Assembly: GCA_001899855.1 (NCBI GenBank)
Contig: MKWR01000017.1
Location: 1 to 64,000 of the forward strand
Length of the DNA: 64,000 bases
Direction: 5' to 3'
From: Lysobacterales bacterium 63-13
GTDB lineage: Bacteria > Pseudomonadota > Gammaproteobacteria > Xanthomonadales > Rhodanobacteraceae
In this document: in pieces, positions 2,845 through 45,467 of the stretch
Position numbering within the stretch: position 1 is the first letter of the stretch
Layout: each line of letters begins with the position of its first letter
The notes under the pieces: generated by a model
Database searches by the model: none
What the model was told of the DNA's origin: nothing
Seen by the model: the letters and a program-made list of their open reading frames with translations, nothing else
Translations under genes and position numbers: made by a program

Positions 2845-3963
2845 ATGCGCCTTGAAACCCTTGCCGTGCATGCCGGCGGTGAAAGCGATGCGGCGACCGG
2901 AGCAGTCGCTCCGCCGATCCATCTGGCGACCACGTTCCGGCACGGCCCGGCGGCCGAAAGCATTGCCGGCTACGAGTACCAGCGCGGCGGCAACCCGACC
3001 AATGATCGCCTGTGCGCGGCGCTTGCCGGGCTGGAAGGCGGTGCGGCGGCACTGACCTTCGCCTCGGGCATGGCCGCCATCAGCGGCCTGCTCGAATCCC
3101 TGCAGCCGGGCGCGCACATTGCGTTGCCGGATGATTGCTATACCGGTTTGCGCACGCTGGGCGCGGAGTTCCTGCCGCAACGCGGCGTTCGCGTGAGTAC
3201 GCTGGACATGAGCGATCTCGACGCGCTGCAGCGGCTTTGCCGGGATGGCGTCGACATGATCTGGGTCGAGACGCCATCGAATCCACGCATGAACGTCAGC
3301 GACATCCGGGCCCTGGCCGGCATCGCGAAAGCGCACGGCAGCGTGCTGGTTTGCGACAACACCTTTGCCTCGCCGGTGCTGCAACGCCCGTTGCAGCTTG
3401 GTGCCGATATCGTCATGCATTCGACGACAAAGTATTTCGGCGGCCACAGCGATGTCCTCGGCGGTGCACTGGTTTTCGCGCAGGCTGGCGACTGGCACGC
3501 GCGCGTTGCCCATCGCCTGCACATCACCGGCGCAACGCTTTCCCCGTTCAGCGCCTGGCTGACCTTGCGCGGTTGCCGATCATTGCCGGCGCGCATGGCC
3601 ATGCATTGCGCCAACGCACGCGCAGTCGCGGGATTTCTCGACGCACATGTGGCCATCGAGCGCGTCAACTATCCGGGCCTCGCCAATCATCCCGGGCACG
3701 CGATTGCCGCGCGCCAGATGAGTGATTTCGGCGGCATGCTCAGCATCCAGGTGCGCGGCGGGCGCAACGCGGCAATCAAGATGGCCGGCCGCTTGAAGCT
3801 GTTCACCAATGCCACTTCGCTTGGCGGCTGCGAATCGCTCATCGAGCATCGCGCCTCGGTCGAGGGAGCCACGCCGACGTCGCCGGACAACCTGCTGCGC
3901 ATTTCCGTGGGACTCGAACACCCGGATGACCTGATTGCCGATCTCGCCCAAGCCCTCGATTAG
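2845..3963 (+). CDS. Trans-sulfuration family PLP-dependent enzyme (cystathionine gamma-synthase/lyase-like)
   Basis: Cys/Met metabolism PLP fold: LETLAVHAGGE, ETPSNPRMNVSDI, DNTFASPVLQRPLQLGADIVMHSTTKYFGGHSD, SLGGCESLIEHRAS. Confidence 0.9.
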   Translation: MRLETLAVHAGGESDAATGAVAPPIHLATTFRHGPAAESIAGYEYQRGGNPTNDRLCAALAGLEGGAAALTFASGMAAISGLLESLQPGAHIALPDDCYTGLRTLGAEFLPQRGVRVSTLDMSDLDALQRLCRDGVDMIWVETPSNPRMNVSDIRALAGIAKAHGSVLVCDNTFASPVLQRPLQLGADIVMHSTTKYFGGHSDVLGGALVFAQAGDWHARVAHRLHITGATLSPFSAWLTLRGCRSLPARMAMHCANARAVAGFLDAHVAIERVNYPGLANHPGHAIAARQMSDFGGMLSIQVRGGRNAAIKMAGRLKLFTNATSLGGCESLIEHRASVEGATPTSPDNLLRISVGLEHPDDLIADLAQALD

Positions 3964-4616
3964 GGTGCGGACAAGGGGCACACCGACTGCGCCAGCGTAT
4001 CCGCGCGCAGGCCGGGTTCAATGGTTGTTGCGGCATTCGCTTCGGCGGCGGCGATTGCCTGCGGGACATAGCTGGCGATGATGCCGGCCAGCAGCGGATT
4101 GCAGTTGTTGCTGGTGGCGTAATTGGTGATCGTCACCACTGGCGGCATGAGGTCATCGCTGTAGACGCCGTCGACGCCATCGGCCTGCATGAGGTAGTCA
4201 AGCAGGTAGCCAAGCGTGATGGCGGTCAGGTTGATCGTGCAGTTGCCGAACGCCGTGGTCGTCACCGGGATGGCAATGTTGTTGGCGCTGCCGGGACCGG
4301 AAAATTCGCCATTGACAAAATTGCCGGAGAACGCACCGGCATGCATGGTCACGGCGCATCCATTGACGGCGGTGCCACAGCCGTTCACCGTCTGGCAGAT
4401 CGTGTAGCCCACGCCGGATTGCTCCCCCGATCGCGGCGGAATGCAGGCGGTCGTGCCTTCGATGCTCGTGCGCATCGACTCAAGGAACTGCGGCCTGGTC
4501 TTTGCCGATGCCCAACAGGTCTCGAAACCGTCGTGGATCAGCAGGTCGCCTGCACTCGAAGGTGACGCGGCAACGGCGAACGCGGCAAGCACGGCGAATC
4601 GAATGGCGTTGAGCAT
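3960..4616 (-). CDS. Predicted secreted hypothetical protein carrying a DGFE motif just after the signal peptide
   Basis: MLNAIRFAVLAAFAVAASPSSAG signal peptide followed by DLLIHDGFETC; start chosen at MLNAIRF. Confidence 0.75.
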   Translation of the reverse strand: MLNAIRFAVLAAFAVAASPSSAGDLLIHDGFETCWASAKTRPQFLESMRTSIEGTTACIPPRSGEQSGVGYTICQTVNGCGTAVNGCAVTMHAGAFSGNFVNGEFSGPGSANNIAIPVTTTAFGNCTINLTAITLGYLLDYLMQADGVDGVYSDDLMPPVVTITNYATSNNCNPLLAGIIASYVPQAIAAAEANAATTIEPGLRADTLAQSVCPLSAP

Positions 4617-16404: not shown

Positions 16405-17379
16405 ATGTTTCATCCAAGCATGCCCCCTGAAATCGACGTCACCGTGGTCGTGCCCGTGTTCGGCGGCAGCGACGCCCTGGCGGAACTGCATCAGCGCCTT
16501 GCCGCCAGCATGGCGAAAGCCGGATTGTCCTGGGAGTTGATCCTCGTCGATGATCGCGGACGCCCGCAATCCTGGCCGGCAATCCGTGCACTGGCGAACA
16601 ACTCCAAGGAAGTGACCGGACTGCGCCTGAGCCGCAATTTCGGCCAGCACGCCGCGACCATCTGCGGCATCGAGCACGCACGGGGGCGCTGGATCATCAC
16701 CATGGATGATGATCTGGAGCATCCGCCCGAAGCCATCGCCTCGATGCTCGAAGCCGGCAGCGAGGAAACGCCCCTGGTCTACGGGCTGTTCCCGCGCCGC
16801 ACCCATTCCGGCGCGCGCAACCTCAGTTCGGAACTGATGCGCTGGACGCTCAAGCGCGCGTTTCCCGAACTCAATGAACACTACTCGTCGTTCCGCGCCA
16901 TCCATGCACCGCTGGCCCGCCAATTGACCGGATTCCGCCTCGCCCGACCCTACATCGACGGCATGCTGTCGTGGATGACCTCGTCGGCGAAGACTGTCGA
17001 AGTCACCCACGGCGAACGCGAATACGGCGAGAGCGCCTACACCTGGCGCAAGCTGATCTCGCATGCGCTCAACATCTTCGTGACGTTCTCGCATCTGCCG
17101 CTGCGCATCGCCAGCTACGGCGGTGCGGCAATCGCGGCAATCAGCTTCCTCTACATGATGTACGTGGTGTACGGCTATTTCAGCGGCCAAATCACCAACC
17201 CCGGCTACACCTCGCTGATGTCGGTCATCCTCTTCGCCTGCGGCATCCAGTTGCTGATCCTCGGCATCATTGGCGAGTATCTTGGGCGACTGATGGGCGC
17301 AACCTATCGCAAGCCGGTTTATCTGGTGGAAACAAGACTGAGCTCCCGCGCGCAGCCCGGTTCGGATGAAACCTTGTGA
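16405..17379 (+). CDS. Glycosyltransferase family 2 (polyprenyl-phosphate sugar transferase-like)
   Basis: VTVVVPVFGGSDAL; GLRLSRNFGQHAATICGIEHARGRWIITMDDDLEHPPEAI; two C-terminal TM helices. Confidence 0.93.
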   Translation: MFHPSMPPEIDVTVVVPVFGGSDALAELHQRLAASMAKAGLSWELILVDDRGRPQSWPAIRALANNSKEVTGLRLSRNFGQHAATICGIEHARGRWIITMDDDLEHPPEAIASMLEAGSEETPLVYGLFPRRTHSGARNLSSELMRWTLKRAFPELNEHYSSFRAIHAPLARQLTGFRLARPYIDGMLSWMTSSAKTVEVTHGEREYGESAYTWRKLISHALNIFVTFSHLPLRIASYGGAAIAAISFLYMMYVVYGYFSGQITNPGYTSLMSVILFACGIQLLILGIIGEYLGRLMGATYRKPVYLVETRLSSRAQPGSDETL

Positions 17380-17804
17380 ACCCGGAGCCTGCTTCACGCA
17401 ATGACGTGGCACCGGTTGAGCACGTGCAGCGGCATCGGAAAATGGCGGGAGAATTCCTGCGCTTCCTGATCATGGGCGGCACCAACACGATTGTTGCCTA
17501 CGCGATCTACCTGCTGCTGCTGCAATGGATGCGTTACGAAATCGCCTACTCGATCGGCTACGCCGTCGGCATCGTCCTGGCCTATGCCCTGAGTGCCGCG
17601 TTCGTGTTTCGCCAACCCATGCGCAGGCGCTCGGCGATACGATTTCCGCTGGTCTACCTGGCCCAGTTCCTGATCAGCCTGGGACTGCTTCGCCTCGCCG
17701 TCGAGGTCATCCACATCCCGCAATGGCTGGCATTCGCCTTCGTTGTCATCTTGACCATCCCGGTGACGTTCCTGCTTTCACGCTGGGTTCTGCGCTCCGG
17801 CTGA
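17376..17804 (+). CDS. GtrA family protein
   Basis: GEFLRFLIMGGTNTIVAYAIYLLLL..., four TM; GTG start overlapping the upstream stop (GTGA). Confidence 0.88.
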   Translation: MNPEPASRNDVAPVEHVQRHRKMAGEFLRFLIMGGTNTIVAYAIYLLLLQWMRYEIAYSIGYAVGIVLAYALSAAFVFRQPMRRRSAIRFPLVYLAQFLISLGLLRLAVEVIHIPQWLAFAFVVILTIPVTFLLSRWVLRSG

Positions 17805-18515
17805 TTCCGATCCCAGCGGGCGACGTCCGCAAACGACGTACTGCGCACCGAGCGGCAACCAGCGCAGCAGGCGATCAAACCGACGCGCCCACGGACGATC
17901 AAACGGCATGAAGAAAAGATATCGGCGCGTGACGATCTCGAAACCCTGATCGCGCAGTAATTGCCGGACCTTGCCAGCCCGCAGCAGCACGGCATCATGA
18001 TCGAACGGGCAACGCCAGACCGCCCAGCGCGTCATTGGATTTATCGGGTTGTGCTCATACACGGCGAACAGCCCTCCCGGCCTGGTCACCCGCCAGGCCT
18101 CGGCGACAAACGAAGGCCATTGATCGGGTGGGACGTGATGCATGACACATGCAGTGTTGCAGAAATCAAAAGATCCGGATGGAAACGGTATCACTCCATC
18201 GTGCTGTACCCGATAGTCGACATCTGCGTTTGACTTGCGTGCGACATCAATGGCTTCATCCGAAACATCCACAGCCGAAAGGCACGCCACCATGGGTCGG
18301 ATCCTGGGGTGCGATACCCCAATACCGCAGCCGATATCGAGACATTCCGACTTGCCTGGCGCCCATGTTGAATGGCTGCGCAGCAATTCCAGCATGTCTT
18401 CGACCTTGCCACGCGCGAACATGTCCACGTCCAAACCGGAAAATGCGATGGACTCGTTGACATCTTGCCGATAATTGGAAGGAAAACTCTCCGATGCCCA
18501 GCGATTGTCACTCAT
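17778..18515 (-). CDS. Class I SAM-dependent methyltransferase
   Basis: CLDIGCGIGVSHPRI; FDFCNTACVMHHVPPDQW; VTRPGGLFAVYEHNP. Confidence 0.9.
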   Translation of the reverse strand: MSDNRWASESFPSNYRQDVNESIAFSGLDVDMFARGKVEDMLELLRSHSTWAPGKSECLDIGCGIGVSHPRIRPMVACLSAVDVSDEAIDVARKSNADVDYRVQHDGVIPFPSGSFDFCNTACVMHHVPPDQWPSFVAEAWRVTRPGGLFAVYEHNPINPMTRWAVWRCPFDHDAVLLRAGKVRQLLRDQGFEIVTRRYLFFMPFDRPWARRFDRLLRWLPLGAQYVVCGRRPLGSESAGAQNPA

Positions 18516-24152: not shown

Positions 24153-25940
24153 TCAGGGCGTCAATTCAAAGCCGTTGGTGAAGATCAAATCAGGCAGATA
24201 AACGCCGCCGTTGATGGCATCACGGCGAAACATCGGCCAATCCATCAGTCGCGGATCCGCCGTACTGCTGTTGAACGTCCACGCGTAAACAGTCACAAAC
24301 GACCCCGACTGCCCCGGTACGTTGCTGTTGGTACCCGCGCCGATGACTTCCAGCCTGCCGTTCCTGTCAATGTCAGCCACGGCTGCAGAATTGAAGAATG
24401 CATCGCTGTTGGTGCTCAGGTTCAATGTTCCTGCCGGGATGGGGCAACCCGTTGCTGCCGTCAGTTGTTGACCCGCCCGATTCCAAATGACGAACTCATT
24501 GGCAGCCGGAAGGATGATTTCCGGATCCGTGTCGCCGAGAAGATTCGCCACCACGGGCGACGCCTGGGTTCCGTAGTGCCAGGAATTCCCCACGCAATCC
24601 GCCGCAATGCTGGGTTCGCGCGGCCAACCAGGTAGCTCCACGCCGTTTGGCTGGATGGCATGCACAACACCAGTCTCATCGTCATTTCGCAAATTGTTGA
24701 TCACGCTGACGAGCCCATTGACCCCGGAGAATTTTGCCAATGCGGGTGATGCGACGCGAGAACTCTCCGCTGGCGTCGCAACCGGCCAACCCGGCAAATC
24801 CTGGCCATTGGACTGGACGCCGAGCATCTGTTTGGTAACCGGATGCACGACAGCGCAACTTGGCATGTCCCAGCAGCGGCCGCTTCCAATCGTGATGGCT
24901 ACTTCACCGATTCCACGGATATCGCCTATTGCGGGTGAGGAATAGATGACCTCGTCATACAACTTTGGAAATCCCGGAAGCTCTCCACTGCCATTGCCGT
25001 GCATGGCGCGCAACAAGCCTCCGTCTGGCAAGGTGATTCCCGGCAATTGGTGAAAATTGCTGTCTGCGCCGACAACGATGTCCATCGTGCCATTGCGATC
25101 AAGATCGACGATCGAGGGCGACGACCAGATCGAATCAACGACATATTCCTGCACGCCTTTTTCCCACCATACCGAGCAATCATGGCGCAGTACGCGGAAT
25201 TTGAAGTCGAAACTTGCCACGGCAATCTGCATCTTCGTCGGTTGGGACGGATCCAGACGCCCAACGGCCGGTGAGCTGTACATGCCCTGTGGATGCGCTG
25301 GATTCAACGCAGTGAACGAACACTGCAATTGCCCCGTGTTGCTGAGGACGTAGATGCCGCCACCATTGAAACTCGGCGACCCCACGCCGACCACGACCTC
25401 GACCAGACCATCGCCGTCGATATCAGCTATCGCAGCCTTGCTTTGGACAGGAACCGCACCCGTATCGTAAGTCCACAGCAGGGTTCCATTGGATCTGACG
25501 GCAACAACACGGCCACCTTCGGTTCCAAAGACGATCTCCGGATCACCGTCGCCATTCAGGTCCGAAATGGTTGGGCTTGATGGCCCCACGCGGTCGTTGC
25601 CCAACTCAGTCAGCGCAGAAGGAAATCCGGGCTGGCAAGGAGGATCGTTTGGAATTCCTGGATGATTGCGCGTCGGGCACGGCAACGTAACAGCTGCGGA
25701 AGCGAATCCGCATGCGAACGCACAAACAATGAGCGCCCCGGCAACGAATGCCAACGCACGGAGTTTCCACTGACGAGCTCCTGTATTTCTTATGCCATCT
25801 TTACAGATGTTCAATCGACGTTGCAGCCTGCATGCCAGCGCAACCGGAAGCAAATGTCCCGGGCCACATTCGACTAGTCGAATGAACAATGCATCGGCTG
25901 ACAAGTCACTCATGGTTCCGTGCTCCCGTCCGCTCAACAA
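24153..25940 (-). CDS. Secreted FG-GAP/VCBS repeat protein ending in DLIFTNGFELTP
   Basis: Repeated DLNGDGDPEIVFG, ADIDGDGLVEVVVG, DLDRNGTMDIVVGAD, ADIDRNGRLEVIGAG; signal peptide LAFVAGALIVCAFACGFASA; true start uncertain. Confidence 0.85.
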   Translation of the reverse strand: MLSGREHGTMSDLSADALFIRLVECGPGHLLPVALACRLQRRLNICKDGIRNTGARQWKLRALAFVAGALIVCAFACGFASAAVTLPCPTRNHPGIPNDPPCQPGFPSALTELGNDRVGPSSPTISDLNGDGDPEIVFGTEGGRVVAVRSNGTLLWTYDTGAVPVQSKAAIADIDGDGLVEVVVGVGSPSFNGGGIYVLSNTGQLQCSFTALNPAHPQGMYSSPAVGRLDPSQPTKMQIAVASFDFKFRVLRHDCSVWWEKGVQEYVVDSIWSSPSIVDLDRNGTMDIVVGADSNFHQLPGITLPDGGLLRAMHGNGSGELPGFPKLYDEVIYSSPAIGDIRGIGEVAITIGSGRCWDMPSCAVVHPVTKQMLGVQSNGQDLPGWPVATPAESSRVASPALAKFSGVNGLVSVINNLRNDDETGVVHAIQPNGVELPGWPREPSIAADCVGNSWHYGTQASPVVANLLGDTDPEIILPAANEFVIWNRAGQQLTAATGCPIPAGTLNLSTNSDAFFNSAAVADIDRNGRLEVIGAGTNSNVPGQSGSFVTVYAWTFNSSTADPRLMDWPMFRRDAINGGVYLPDLIFTNGFELTP

Positions 25941-31130: not shown

Positions 31131-32234
31131 ATGGACATCGGATATTTTCTCAAGCTGATGACCGAGAAAGGCGCGTCGGACATGTTCCTGACCACAGGCG
31201 CCCCGGTGAACATCAAGGTCGAGGGCAAGCTCTATCCGCTCGGCAATACCGGGCTTCCCGGCGGCATGGTCAAGAAGATCGCCTATTCGCTGATGGATGA
31301 GGGCCAGGTCCCGCTGTTCGAGAGCAAGCTGGAATTGAACATGGCCATTGCGGTCAAGGATGCCGGCCGCTTCCGCATCAACGTGTTCAAGCAGCGCGGC
31401 GAAGTCGGCATGGTCATCCGCGCGATCAAGAGCGAGATCCCGAGCATCGAACAGTTGCGCCTGCCGCAGTTGTTCAAGGAACTGATCATGGAGCCGCGCG
31501 GCCTGATCCTGGTGGTCGGTGCCACAGGTTCGGGCAAGTCGACCACGCTGGCGGCAATGATCGATCATCGCAACACGAACACTTCCGGTCACATTCTGAC
31601 GGTCGAGGATCCAATCGAATACCTTTATCGTCACAAGAAATCGGTGGTCAATCAGCGCGAGGTCGGCCTCGATACGCACAGCTATTCCGAGGCGCTGAAG
31701 AATGCGATGCGCGAGGCGCCCGATGTCATCCTGATCGGCGAGATCCGCGATGCCGAGACCATGGAGGCAGCCATCTCGTTCTCGGAAACCGGCCACCTGT
31801 GCCTGGCCACCCTGCACTCGAACAACGCCGACCAGACCCTCGAACGCATCCTCAATTTCTTCCCCGAGGCCGCGCATCGCAACATCCTCATGAACCTGGC
31901 CCTGAACCTGCGCTCGGTCATTTCGCAGCGCCTGGTCATGGGCAAGGACGGACGCCGCCTGCCCGCCGTCGAAGTACTCCTGAACACGCCACTGATCCGC
32001 GACATGATCCGGCGTGGCCAGATCCACGAGATGAAGGAAGCCATGGATCGCAGCCTGCAGGAAGGCATGCAGACCTTCGACCAGGCGCTGTACGCGCTGT
32101 ACAAGGATGGCCGCATCGAACTGGAAGAGGCATTGTCGAAAGCCGATTCACGCGACGGCCTTGCCCTCAAGATCCGCCTTGCCGAAGGCGGCGAGACGCC
32201 GATGGACGAAGGCTTCGAGGATTCACACTTCTGA
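31131..32234 (+). CDS. pilU: Type IV pilus retraction ATPase PilU
   Basis: MDIGYFLKLMTEKGASDMFLTTGAPVNIKVEGKLYPL; GATGSGKSTTLAAMIDHRN; GEIRDAETMEAAISFSETGHLCLATLHSNNA. Confidence 0.93.
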   Translation: MDIGYFLKLMTEKGASDMFLTTGAPVNIKVEGKLYPLGNTGLPGGMVKKIAYSLMDEGQVPLFESKLELNMAIAVKDAGRFRINVFKQRGEVGMVIRAIKSEIPSIEQLRLPQLFKELIMEPRGLILVVGATGSGKSTTLAAMIDHRNTNTSGHILTVEDPIEYLYRHKKSVVNQREVGLDTHSYSEALKNAMREAPDVILIGEIRDAETMEAAISFSETGHLCLATLHSNNADQTLERILNFFPEAAHRNILMNLALNLRSVISQRLVMGKDGRRLPAVEVLLNTPLIRDMIRRGQIHEMKEAMDRSLQEGMQTFDQALYALYKDGRIELEEALSKADSRDGLALKIRLAEGGETPMDEGFEDSHF

Positions 32235-41912: not shown

Positions 41913-44900
41913 ATGAAATCGAAAAACCACGTTCGCTCGGCTCTCGCCGCTGCGATCCTCCTTGCAATTGGCAACGTTCACGCTGCGACCGACAACTTGC
42001 CGCGCGTTGCTCCCGAAGCCGTGACGCCCGACCAGTTGACCGACGCGCGTGCGGGCGACAGTCATCTCTTGCTGCTTCGATCAGGTCTCATTGATCCAAC
42101 CAGCGAACGCATCGATTTTTCCGCGACGGGTGCTGCCGCCGATGTGCAATCGGGCCGCTACGCCATCGTGCAGTTCAATGACGATCCGGCAAAGGCGCGG
42201 GCCCGGCTTGAGCAGCGCGGCGTGCGCTTCCTTGGCTACGTACCAAACAACGCCTATCAGGTTCGCCTCGAAGGCAACGCGCTGCGTGAGTTGCACGCCG
42301 ATGCCGACGTGCGCTGGGTTGGCGTCTACCAGCCCGGACAGAAACTGGATCCCGCACTCTGGATCAGCGTCCGTGCAGATTTGATACTCGCTCCGCAAGG
42401 GGGACTTGAAATCGATGTGTTCGGTTTTGCCGGCGAATCAGCCAGCCAGATCGGCGCCGCCCTTTCGAAAGTGCCGGGTACAACGATCGTCTCGGTTGCG
42501 GAAAGCGATTCCGTACCTTTCACCCGCGTGCATGTCGGCGAACAGGGTCTTGACGCCCTGGTTCGTGCGGCAACCGCCGAGGACAGTGTCGCCTGGGTTG
42601 CCCCGCATCTCCAGGAATACGTCAACAATTCGGGCGGCATCAGCGCAATCCAGGGCGATTCCCCGACCGCCAGCACGCCTGGGTCAGGTGCCGTCGAGGC
42701 GGGACGTCAGCCGCTCTGGGATCACGGGCTGTTTGGCACAGGTCAAATCATCAGCATTTCCGATTCCGGCCTCGATGCCAATGAAGCGTGGTTCACGACA
42801 CTCAACAAGGGTGCCGGCGACCACATCGAGATCACGACGGCCGACACGCCGGTACCGCCGGCACTCGGCGTCGCCCACGCCGACAACAAGGTCTATGCCT
42901 ACTGGGTACAACCAGGCGCGACCGCTTATGACAACACCACCACGTGTCCCGGCGGCAACCCGACCGGCTTTCACGGCACCCACACCAGCGGCACGATCGC
43001 TGGTGATGCCGGCGGCGCGGTTGGCGCCACCACCTATACCGCATCGACGCCGACTTCATCGGGCCACGAACTGGCCGATGGCATGGCGCCGAATGCGCAA
43101 CTGCTGTTCCAGGATATCGGCAACGACACCACGGGCTGCCTGTCCATAACCAATCTTGGCGGCACGATCAGGCAGGCGCACAGTGCCGGTGCACGCATCC
43201 ACAGTGCGAGTTGGGGAAGTGCGAGCGCGGGCGCCTACAGCGGCAGTGACCGCATCGTCGACAATACGTTGTCGCTGATCGAAGACATGATCTTCGTTGT
43301 CTCGGCGGGCAATAACGGCAGCGGGCCAACCACGACCGGATCGCCGGGAAATGCCAAGAACGCGATCACGGTCGGCGCGCTCGGACATTCCGGCAGCAAG
43401 GTGGTTGCGAGCTTTTCAAGTCGGGGACCGACTGTCGACGGACGCCTGAAACCGGACATCATGGCTCCCGGGAGCAGCACCGTTTCCGCATCGGGTGATG
43501 CCAGCACGACGGGCACGATCGAGGCCGCCGTGTCGAAAGGGCTTTCCGGAACATCGATGTCCGCACCGACGATCGCAGGCAATGCCGGACTCGTGCGCCA
43601 GTTCTTCACTGACGGTTTCTATCCACGCGGAACAAAGACCATCGCCGACTCCTACAACCCGAGCGGCATGGCGTTGAAGGCTGTGCTGCTGAATGGCACA
43701 AACCCGATCCTGAACTCGAACACCGCGCCGACCGACCAGTTCTTCAACGGCAACTACGGCTGGGGTCGCGGCTGGACCGACTCGAACCTCTGGTTCACGA
43801 CTACGCCGAGCGCATTCGGCAACGACAATCGTCGCCTGCGCATTTTCGAGCGCACCAACGTGGCCGGCGTGCAGACCGGCGACACGCAGGAATACACGAT
43901 TGCCAACGTCGCGGCGGGTCAGGAGTTGCGTGCGACCCTGACCTGGTATGACCCCGAGGCAACCAGCGGTGCCGCGCTGAGCCTGGTCAACAATCTCGAC
44001 CTCGAAGTGGTCGGCCCCGGTGCCACGCTGTATCGCGGCAACGTGTTCACCGCCGGTGTATCAACCACCGGCGGCAGTGCGGATATTCGCAATACGGTCG
44101 AGCAGGTGCGCCTCACCGCGCCGACCGCCGGCAGCTACACGTTCCGTGTGAAAGGCACGGCGGTCCCGGGCGGTTCGCGGCCGAACACGAATCGGCAGGG
44201 CTATGCACTTGCGGTATCCGGCGCATTCGGCCTGCCCAACACGCCGGCCTTCGCGGCACCAACCGGACTCAGCGTAGCGCCGGTGGCAGGCGGCACCCAG
44301 GTCGCCTTCAGTGCCGCTGGTGGCGCCCAGGGCTTCCAGCTCTATCGTGCGGCCGGCACATGCGCGGCAGCGGCAGCCGGTGATTTCCGACTGGTTGGCT
44401 CGTCCGCATCCAGCCCGGTGGTTGATTCCACGAGTCAGGGCGGCTATCCGTATGCCTACAAGGTTCGTGGCGTCAGCAACGATATCGAGGGTGATGCCTC
44501 GGCCTGTATCGATACGACTTCCAGTGGTGCATGCAACCTGCAACCGTCATTCGACGGCACCAGTGTGGTCGGCGGCGCATCGCTCAACGCAACCTGCAAG
44601 GTGCCACTGAACTGGGCGGCCGCGACATCGAACTGCCCGCTTTCTCCCAGCGTCAGCTATTCGGTGCAGAGATCCTCGGATCCCTATTTCACGTCGCCGG
44701 CCACGATTGCCACGAACGTTGCAAGCACGAGCTATGAGGATTTCGCGGTCCTGCCCGCGGCACCTTACTACTACAAGGTTCTGGCGACCGATTCGCAAGG
44801 CAACAGCGCACCAATCAGCCAGACCGTCGGTGGCACGGCGATCGGGCCCAGCGGCGTCGATGGCAACACTTACCTGGATGATGGCGATACCCATGTCTAC

Positions 44901-45467
44901 TCGAACCTGGCTGCTCCGTGGCAAGTCACCAACACGGCGGCCACCTCGGGCACCCTCAGCTATCACAGCGGTGCCGATGGGGCGAACTATCCCGCCAGCA
45001 GCTGCGGCGCGATGACGACACCGCCGATTGTCGTACAGCCGAGCGCTACGCTCGACTTCAAGATGAAGTACAACATCGAGACGGGCTGGGATGTGCTCAT
45101 CCTGGAAGTCTCGACCAACGGCGGTGCCAGCTGGGCCGATCTGCCACCCAACGGTGGCTACCCGGCCTCGGGTACGGTGACCAATGCCGGCAATGCCTGC
45201 GGATATCCGGTTGGCAAGACCGGATTTGCCGGCTCGACGTCCGCGACACCGACCAATGACGCGGCGGTGGCTTCGTTCCAGAACTTCTCGGCAAGTCTCG
45301 CTGCGTATTCCGGCCAGACGATCCAGTTGCGCTGGCGCTTCTCTTCGGATGGTGGCTACGAAGTGGGCGGTGCGTTTATCGATGAGATCAGTCTGAGCAG
45401 TGCCGATCGGATCTTCGTCGACGGCTTCGATCCGGCCAACAGCGCCTACGTGTGCACACCGCTGTAA
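41913..45467 (+). CDS. Secreted S8 (subtilisin-like) serine peptidase with C-terminal DRIFVDGFD motif
   Basis: Catalytic ISDSGLD, FHGTHTSGTIAGD, GTSMSAPTIAG; signal peptide MKSKNHVRSALAAAILLAIGNVHAA. Confidence 0.93.
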   Translation: MKSKNHVRSALAAAILLAIGNVHAATDNLPRVAPEAVTPDQLTDARAGDSHLLLLRSGLIDPTSERIDFSATGAAADVQSGRYAIVQFNDDPAKARARLEQRGVRFLGYVPNNAYQVRLEGNALRELHADADVRWVGVYQPGQKLDPALWISVRADLILAPQGGLEIDVFGFAGESASQIGAALSKVPGTTIVSVAESDSVPFTRVHVGEQGLDALVRAATAEDSVAWVAPHLQEYVNNSGGISAIQGDSPTASTPGSGAVEAGRQPLWDHGLFGTGQIISISDSGLDANEAWFTTLNKGAGDHIEITTADTPVPPALGVAHADNKVYAYWVQPGATAYDNTTTCPGGNPTGFHGTHTSGTIAGDAGGAVGATTYTASTPTSSGHELADGMAPNAQLLFQDIGNDTTGCLSITNLGGTIRQAHSAGARIHSASWGSASAGAYSGSDRIVDNTLSLIEDMIFVVSAGNNGSGPTTTGSPGNAKNAITVGALGHSGSKVVASFSSRGPTVDGRLKPDIMAPGSSTVSASGDASTTGTIEAAVSKGLSGTSMSAPTIAGNAGLVRQFFTDGFYPRGTKTIADSYNPSGMALKAVLLNGTNPILNSNTAPTDQFFNGNYGWGRGWTDSNLWFTTTPSAFGNDNRRLRIFERTNVAGVQTGDTQEYTIANVAAGQELRATLTWYDPEATSGAALSLVNNLDLEVVGPGATLYRGNVFTAGVSTTGGSADIRNTVEQVRLTAPTAGSYTFRVKGTAVPGGSRPNTNRQGYALAVSGAFGLPNTPAFAAPTGLSVAPVAGGTQVAFSAAGGAQGFQLYRAAGTCAAAAAGDFRLVGSSASSPVVDSTSQGGYPYAYKVRGVSNDIEGDASACIDTTSSGACNLQPSFDGTSVVGGASLNATCKVPLNWAAATSNCPLSPSVSYSVQRSSDPYFTSPATIATNVASTSYEDFAVLPAAPYYYKVLATDSQGNSAPISQTVGGTAIGPSGVDGNTYLDDGDTHVYSNLAAPWQVTNTAATSGTLSYHSGADGANYPASSCGAMTTPPIVVQPSATLDFKMKYNIETGWDVLILEVSTNGGASWADLPPNGGYPASGTVTNAGNACGYPVGKTGFAGSTSATPTNDAAVASFQNFSASLAAYSGQTIQLRWRFSSDGGYEVGGAFIDEISLSSADRIFVDGFDPANSAYVCTPL

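Follow-up and report, generated by a model that had tools for sequence, protein, structure and literature searches.

Tagged proteins in the window and anatomy of the tag

The window, that is, the whole 64,000-nucleotide stretch of DNA from Lysobacterales bacterium 63-13 that was analysed, contains the genes of two secreted proteins carrying a nine-residue tag near the C terminus, and of a third with a possible N-terminal variant (Table 1). The S8 peptidase, a protein of 1184 residues (start MKSKNHVRSALAAAILLAIGNVHAA), matched the Pfam families PF00082 (5.7e-37) and PF20773 (1.9e-11, residues 1009–1180). A sequence-only reading of the window had given its tail as DRIFVDGFD, and the DNA does read so. 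The same reading had DLIFTNGFE at the end of an FG-GAP protein; this was also borne out, the motif being followed by LTP and the stop codon. For the third carrier, a secreted protein of 218 residues (3960–4616) for which a Pfam search returned no family, the claim held in part: DLLIHDGFE does lie behind the signal peptide, but LLIHDGFE is a weak, rather loose match to the motif and, taken singly, is without significance. Since strict N-terminal tags occur in two other proteins (L093 and L349, below), it may be a true N-terminal tag. It may be noted that the window also holds a frame (31137–31949, plus strand) that clearly resembles secretion ATPases of the GspE/PilB type (5e-24 and 6e-26 by tblastn), away from both type II secretion loci of the genome.

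Table 1. Positions of the tagged proteins and their tags in the window
Feature	Position	Strand	Remarks
Secreted S8 peptidase with tag	41913..45467	+	Signal peptide, Peptidase_S8, C-terminal InhA-like MAM / choice-of-anchor-J-like domain; ATG at 41913, stop 45465-45467
C-terminal tag DRIFVDGFD of S8 peptidase	45405..45431	+	
Trailer PANSAYVCTPL	45432..45464	+	11 residues, between S8 tag and stop
Secreted FG-GAP beta-propeller protein with tag	24153..25940	-	FG-GAP_3 3e-16; signal-peptide-like stretch ALAFVAGALIVCAFACGFASAA; stop at 24153
C-terminal tag DLIFTNGFE of FG-GAP protein	24165..24191 (24191-24165)	-	
Possible N-terminal tag variant DLLIHDGFE	4521..4547 (4547-4521)	-	Directly after signal peptide

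The consensus of the tag is D-x-I-F-x-[DN]-[G, less often S or R]-F-[E/D]. We aligned 85 tails, obtained by pattern searches in which I, F, D/N, G, F, and E/D were fixed and the remaining positions free. At these free positions aspartate occurred at −2 in 60 of the 85 tails, and alanine was the commonest residue at x. The protein ended right at GF[ED] in 46/85 tails, while the others had P-, A-, and T-rich trailers of up to 21 residues. No hydrophobic or transmembrane helix, basic end, conserved cysteine, or lipidation cysteine was found in the 85 tails. An AlphaFold model of the C-terminal 185 residues of the S8 peptidase, based on a 16-row alignment, placed the tag beyond the last strand (154–162) of the MAM-like domain, with a confidence below 50 for residues 173–185. 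As modelled, the tag is an exposed peptide outside the preceding fold and not a folded C-terminal domain.

Tags also occurred in tandem, 11–13 codons apart at the end of the protein, in the loci L099 (IFLDGFEGDVIFKNGYD), L107, and L102, and likewise at G461:C3:9229/9262, G400:C1:871665/871701, and G377:C70:17874/17913. A minority of the tags were not C-terminal. In a DUF1800 protein (L093) and an FGE-sulfatase-like protein (L349) the tag stood immediately behind the signal peptide, and in L346 it was found between the pro-region and a reprolysin-like domain. In L356 (G467:C20) a glucose/sorbosone dehydrogenase domain was matched in two halves with the form IFSDRFE between them, at residues about 427–433 of the frame 223–2070 and apparently in an expanded surface loop. 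Occurrence at the C terminus, at the N terminus, and in loops makes a displayed epitope likelier than a C-terminal cleavage signal, and recognition of a displayed peptide is the better fit to these observations.

Abundance, carriers, and distribution of the tag

When the genome of Lysobacterales bacterium 63-13 (3.75 Mb) was searched for IFx[DN]GF[DE] with the pattern ATHTTYNNNRAYGGNTTYGAN, 38 exact matches were obtained; the reversed pattern, used as the control, gave none. In 29 of 30 loci fetched from this genome, a stop codon followed the in-frame motif at 0–11 residues. We also scanned a 0.7-Mb sample taken in stretches (595 called genes, 19% of the genome) for the form [ILVM]Fx[DN]GF[DE]. 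Here 14/15 matches fell inside the last 25 residues of the proteins, a region holding 7.3% of all residues (p=2e-15). Signal peptides were called by a crude detector, and the starts of the carriers were checked by eye. Of the carriers whose start was intact, 13 of 13 had a signal-peptide-like N terminus, compared with 206 of the 595 genes overall; a Sec/Tat signal peptide is what is expected of type II secretion substrates. A sugar-dehydrogenase-like protein of the same genome (L128, G000:C4:241682–243430) has LLFADGFD some 30 residues from the C terminus and a low-complexity trailer behind it; its tail is possibly frameshifted.

The carriers were of unrelated folds: subtilases, M14 carboxypeptidase, endonuclease I, glucose/sorbosone dehydrogenase propeller, FG-GAP, and PKD/PPC. 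At the level of the DNA, 33 of the 38 20-mers at the tags of this genome were distinct, so that selection acts on the peptide and the DNA itself is not conserved; AT-rich genomes encode the same peptide with different codons. The initial proposal of a motif common to unrelated exported proteins was hence confirmed, and the motif proved more widespread than had been noticed. Both checks that had been suggested along with it were run, and neither refuted the tag: C-terminal enrichment on signal-peptide proteins was strong, and the carriers had no shared fold. Scanning of eight tails against NCBIfam, together with whole-protein model searches, placed no CTERM or anchor model on the tag. Nor was the motif matched in NCBIfam, Pfam, or the literature, where no account of sorting signals for this order turned up either, although an earlier naming outside open-licence papers is possible.

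An exact pattern requiring a stop directly after GFE was run over 85,462 species. It returned 25 stretches, all from Lysobacterales/Xanthomonadales or members of this order (Dokdonella fugitiva, Pseudofulvimonas gallinarii, and a Wenzhouxiangella MAG) or from loosely labelled Proteobacteria MAGs. Among 369 genomes of the class, those outside the order gave a background of 0–3 matches, and nearly all of these that were fetched were internal and lay in unrelated or spurious frames. The tag does not extend beyond the order Lysobacterales/Xanthomonadales. The 249 genomes from this order showed a sharp split between lineages with 10–81 copies and lineages with 0–1. Among the latter are the crowns of family f1, to which the window belongs, and of family f2, two early-branching genera of which had 27 and 18 copies. 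Families f188 and f190 were of mixed status.

A second type II secretion system and its co-distribution with the tag

A co-distributed protease or transpeptidase had been suggested as something to look for. The partner that was found is neither of these, but a second type II secretion system (T2SS), here called T2SS-A. A panel of 53 genomes was searched for T2SS secretins, and 80 secretins placed in a tree formed two deep clades, A and B. Clade B, the orthodox, Xps-like one, was present in nearly all panel genomes, and for most tag-free genomes it was the only one. Each of the 25 tag-rich panel genomes contributed one secretin to clade A (25/25). The tag-free genomes in clade A came from f187 (1), f190 (2), and f189 (1), in addition to the long-branch rows G593 and G425.

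The clade-A locus consists of gspC-gspD-gspE, in several relatives often with gspF adjacent, and lies beside rhlB-trxA-rho; the synteny rho-trx-rhlB-gspC-D-E was kept across families. The encoded GspC has a T2SSC and a PDZ domain, and GspD has N0 and secretin domains; GspE is also encoded. The XpsN-like protein of the genome's own T2SS-B gave no T2SSC match. No T2SS-A pseudopilins GspG–K or GspL/M were found at the own locus or in the 19% of this genome that was sampled. T2SS-A is ancestral in the order, as is the tag. In L171 (G421:C19) a gene for a protein ending in DLIFENGFE (16484–18274, plus strand) follows, at a distance of a few genes, on the downstream side of T2SS-A gspCDEF and an ftsE/ftsX-like neighbourhood.

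Co-distribution was assessed over the 249 genomes of the order, with PF11356 (gspC) as the marker of T2SS-A and at least four copies as the threshold for tag-positive. With strict tags alone, 78 tag-positive genomes had the marker and 6 did not; for tag-negative genomes the numbers were 42 and 123. When the variant tags described below were included, the marker was present in 101 tag-positive genomes and absent from 9, and present in 19 tag-negative genomes and absent from 120 (Fisher p=1.6e-38), a whole-genome value that overstates the evidence because shared ancestry is ignored, the independent concordant losses being about four. These losses are in crown f1, in crown f2, in genus g294 of f188, and, within f189, in G384, a genome without any T2SS. 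Counted by genus, with both tag forms, the corresponding numbers were 33, 1, 5, and 37 (p=8e-15).

The biggest block of exceptions with strict tags was genus g296, of which 27 genomes had T2SS-A and two or fewer strict tags each. Here the orthologues of a subtilase from the own genome ended in IFLDRFE and IFQDRFE. When the order was then searched for G-to-R/S variants, g296 genomes had as many as 44 copies, typically 7–20, and the reversed control had none; a few small g296 MAGs had 0–3 copies, and tag-free crown lineages 0–2. The variant tags were C-terminal in 28 of 32 examined from g296 and its sister genus g335. The IFxDRFE variant in this T2SS-A-positive genus is a prediction from T2SS-A presence that held.

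Tag-positive genomes without PF11356 were mostly incomplete. The sole good-quality misfit was G427 (f188, genus g313; 97% complete), with ten tag-like matches and clade B alone among its secretins. The remaining tag-free, marker-positive genomes were small or incomplete MAGs, the divergent f2 systems, f187, G428, where the subtilase orthologue ends in IFMHGFES, and G593. It also speaks against the export role proposed below that many bacteria with a PDZ-type GspC, such as Vibrio, lie outside the range of the tag. In G593, which has no IFxDGFE tag, a true rhombosortase gene (131 bits) adjoins gspC of a clade-A-like gspC-D-E (L181, G593:C47:11500–30500); perhaps one tag system has here naturally replaced another on the same machine.

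The subtilase whose orthologues gave the variant tag (an S8 subtilase by Pfam) was the query in a search of 42 genomes. Homologues were found in 23/42, all 23 with a clade-A T2SS, and the shorter matches spanned only the shared C-terminal region (residues about 780–1190). As the homologues occurred only in clade-A T2SS genomes, cargo and machine appear to have been lost together. When tag dialect was compared with the residues of the GspC PDZ domain, the differences were indistinguishable from relatedness, with only two R-type sequences at hand.

Proposed function, rival explanations, and known systems

In species with two T2SSs, each genome has dozens of proteins marked by the nine-residue motif. 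As the motif is nearly confined to genomes that keep T2SS-A, it probably serves this system as an address label. The carriers would cross the inner membrane via Sec and fold in the periplasm with the tag displayed, usually as the last element of the protein. The displayed tag would then mark them for passage through the outer membrane by T2SS-A, and the part of the system reading it would be periplasmic, the PDZ domain of GspC or the N domains of GspD. That tags are also found behind signal peptides and within a sugar-dehydrogenase domain is as a displayed epitope would predict. We consider it rather probable that a modular, displayed tag picks Sec-exported proteins for T2SS-A, with the GspC PDZ or the GspD N domains as its likeliest reader. 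T2SS-A may be taken as the putative exporter of tagged proteins and GspC PDZ or GspD as the candidate binding partner. Some T2SS substrates, but not all, are known to require the GspC PDZ domain, and in PelI it is a disordered loop that makes contact with the PDZ domain of OutC (PMC12369372). According to the same paper, of 2025, T2SSs have no known universal signal of a linear kind (PMC12369372). A wider proposal is that a short linear peptide, whether C-terminal, N-terminal, or in a loop, serves as the general export signal of a dedicated T2SS, read by the GspC PDZ or GspD N domains in the clade dialects IFxDGFE, IFxDSFE, and IFxDRFE; this we advance tentatively, its chances seeming to us a little short of even.

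The choice of cargo by T2SSs is a long-open question. If the proposal is true, the tag is the first known short linear signal for such systems, and T2SS cargo becomes predictable from a sequence motif across a whole bacterial order. The G, S, and R dialects would be a natural experiment in co-evolution, and the tag a possible tool for the export of chosen proteins.

The sequence-only reading had left sorting, anchoring, and processing side by side as roles of a short tag. A short tag is supported, and the evidence favours sorting or export, the function being reached by inference. The main rival to an export address is retention after export, in which T2SS-A would recognise the folds of its substrates, and the tag would later hold them to an outer-membrane or LPS receptor, its link with T2SS-A being indirect. 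The co-distribution data fit this too, the proteases, nucleases, and dehydrogenases among the carriers are suited to the surface, and the known T2SS-linked tags, GlyGly-CTERM and MYXO-CTERM, act in holding proteins at the surface and not in their export (PMC13393428, PMC11980579). The present tag, however, lacks a membrane anchor, a cysteine for lipidation, and a basic tail, and no receptor was identified; tandem, N-terminal, and loop tags could occur under retention yet are not specifically expected of it. We regard retention as unlikely. Coincidental loss, with the tag serving some other system that disappeared alongside T2SS-A in the crown lineages and the two being mutually independent, we think quite improbable. 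Both are ancestral and the independent events are few, and G427 has tag-like matches without a clade-A GspD; against this stand the roughly four concordant events, among them two tag-rich genera in an otherwise tag-free family and G384, and the variant tag foreseen from the presence of T2SS-A in its genus.

A processing signal, cleaved at the C terminus by a sortase-like enzyme of the exosortase, rhombosortase, or myxosortase type, would explain the C-terminal bias and, as in CTERM systems, the dozens of substrates per genome. It is nevertheless very improbable: a transmembrane segment, a basic tail, and a CTERM model match are all lacking, internal and N-terminal tags exist, and the tags that end at the motif leave nothing to be cleaved off. 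Rhombosortase was rejected as a partner, TIGR03902 being over cut-off in 2/53 panel genomes, both without tags. A search with TIGR03501 (GlyGly-CTERM) gave no match in any genome or control and is hence uninformative. That there is no tag at all, the motif being the last strand of one fold, a product of chance, or an element of the DNA where genes end, deserves practically no credence, even though a MAM-like C-terminal domain is common to several carriers. This reading was refuted by the carrier folds, the model, codon diversity, and the reversed control. The AlphaFold model, where the tag lies past the last strand as confidence drops, and the unrelated carrier domains rule out a last strand, and codon diversity, in this genome as in AT-rich ones, rules out a DNA-level or REP-like element.

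With an export address as the preferred reading, the tag can be set beside known systems; that it differs from PEP-CTERM, GlyGly-CTERM, and the T9SS CTD had been claimed from the outset and stands, as it has no CTERM model match, helix, or basic tail. The T9SS CTD is also a C-terminal secretion address on many unrelated proteins, but it is a folded domain of Bacteroidota, while the present tag is a nine-residue peptide of Gammaproteobacteria, exposed according to the model. The type I secretion signal is a linear C-terminal motif, acidic plus hydrophobic; its substrates have no signal peptide, unlike the present carriers. PEP-CTERM has a PEP-like motif, a helix, and a basic tail, which the tag does not match. 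GlyGly-CTERM is likewise a C-terminal tag carried by Sec-exported hydrolases, in T2SS species, and its carriers have similar domains. It consists, however, of a Gly/Ser motif, a transmembrane helix, and a basic tail and is cleaved by rhombosortase, whereas our tag has nine residues without helix or basic end, and rhombosortase exceeded the cut-off only in tag-free panel genomes. MYXO-CTERM resembles the tag in being lineage-restricted and C-terminal on secreted proteins, and its bearers reach the surface via T2SS. Its invariant cysteine, transmembrane helix, and Arg-rich tail are all absent from our tag, which is also found N-terminally and internally. GlyGly-CTERM and MYXO-CTERM are precedents for tags that work with T2SS, but in both a dedicated intramembrane protease attaches the protein to the membrane (PMC13393428, PMC11980579). 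In the known type II signals, the Ig fold of VesB with the EpsC PDZ and the Fn3 loop of PelI with the OutC PDZ, the GspC PDZ reads the substrate and a disordered loop can be the contact. Those signals are structural or belong to a single substrate, whereas the present peptide is common to dozens of unrelated proteins.
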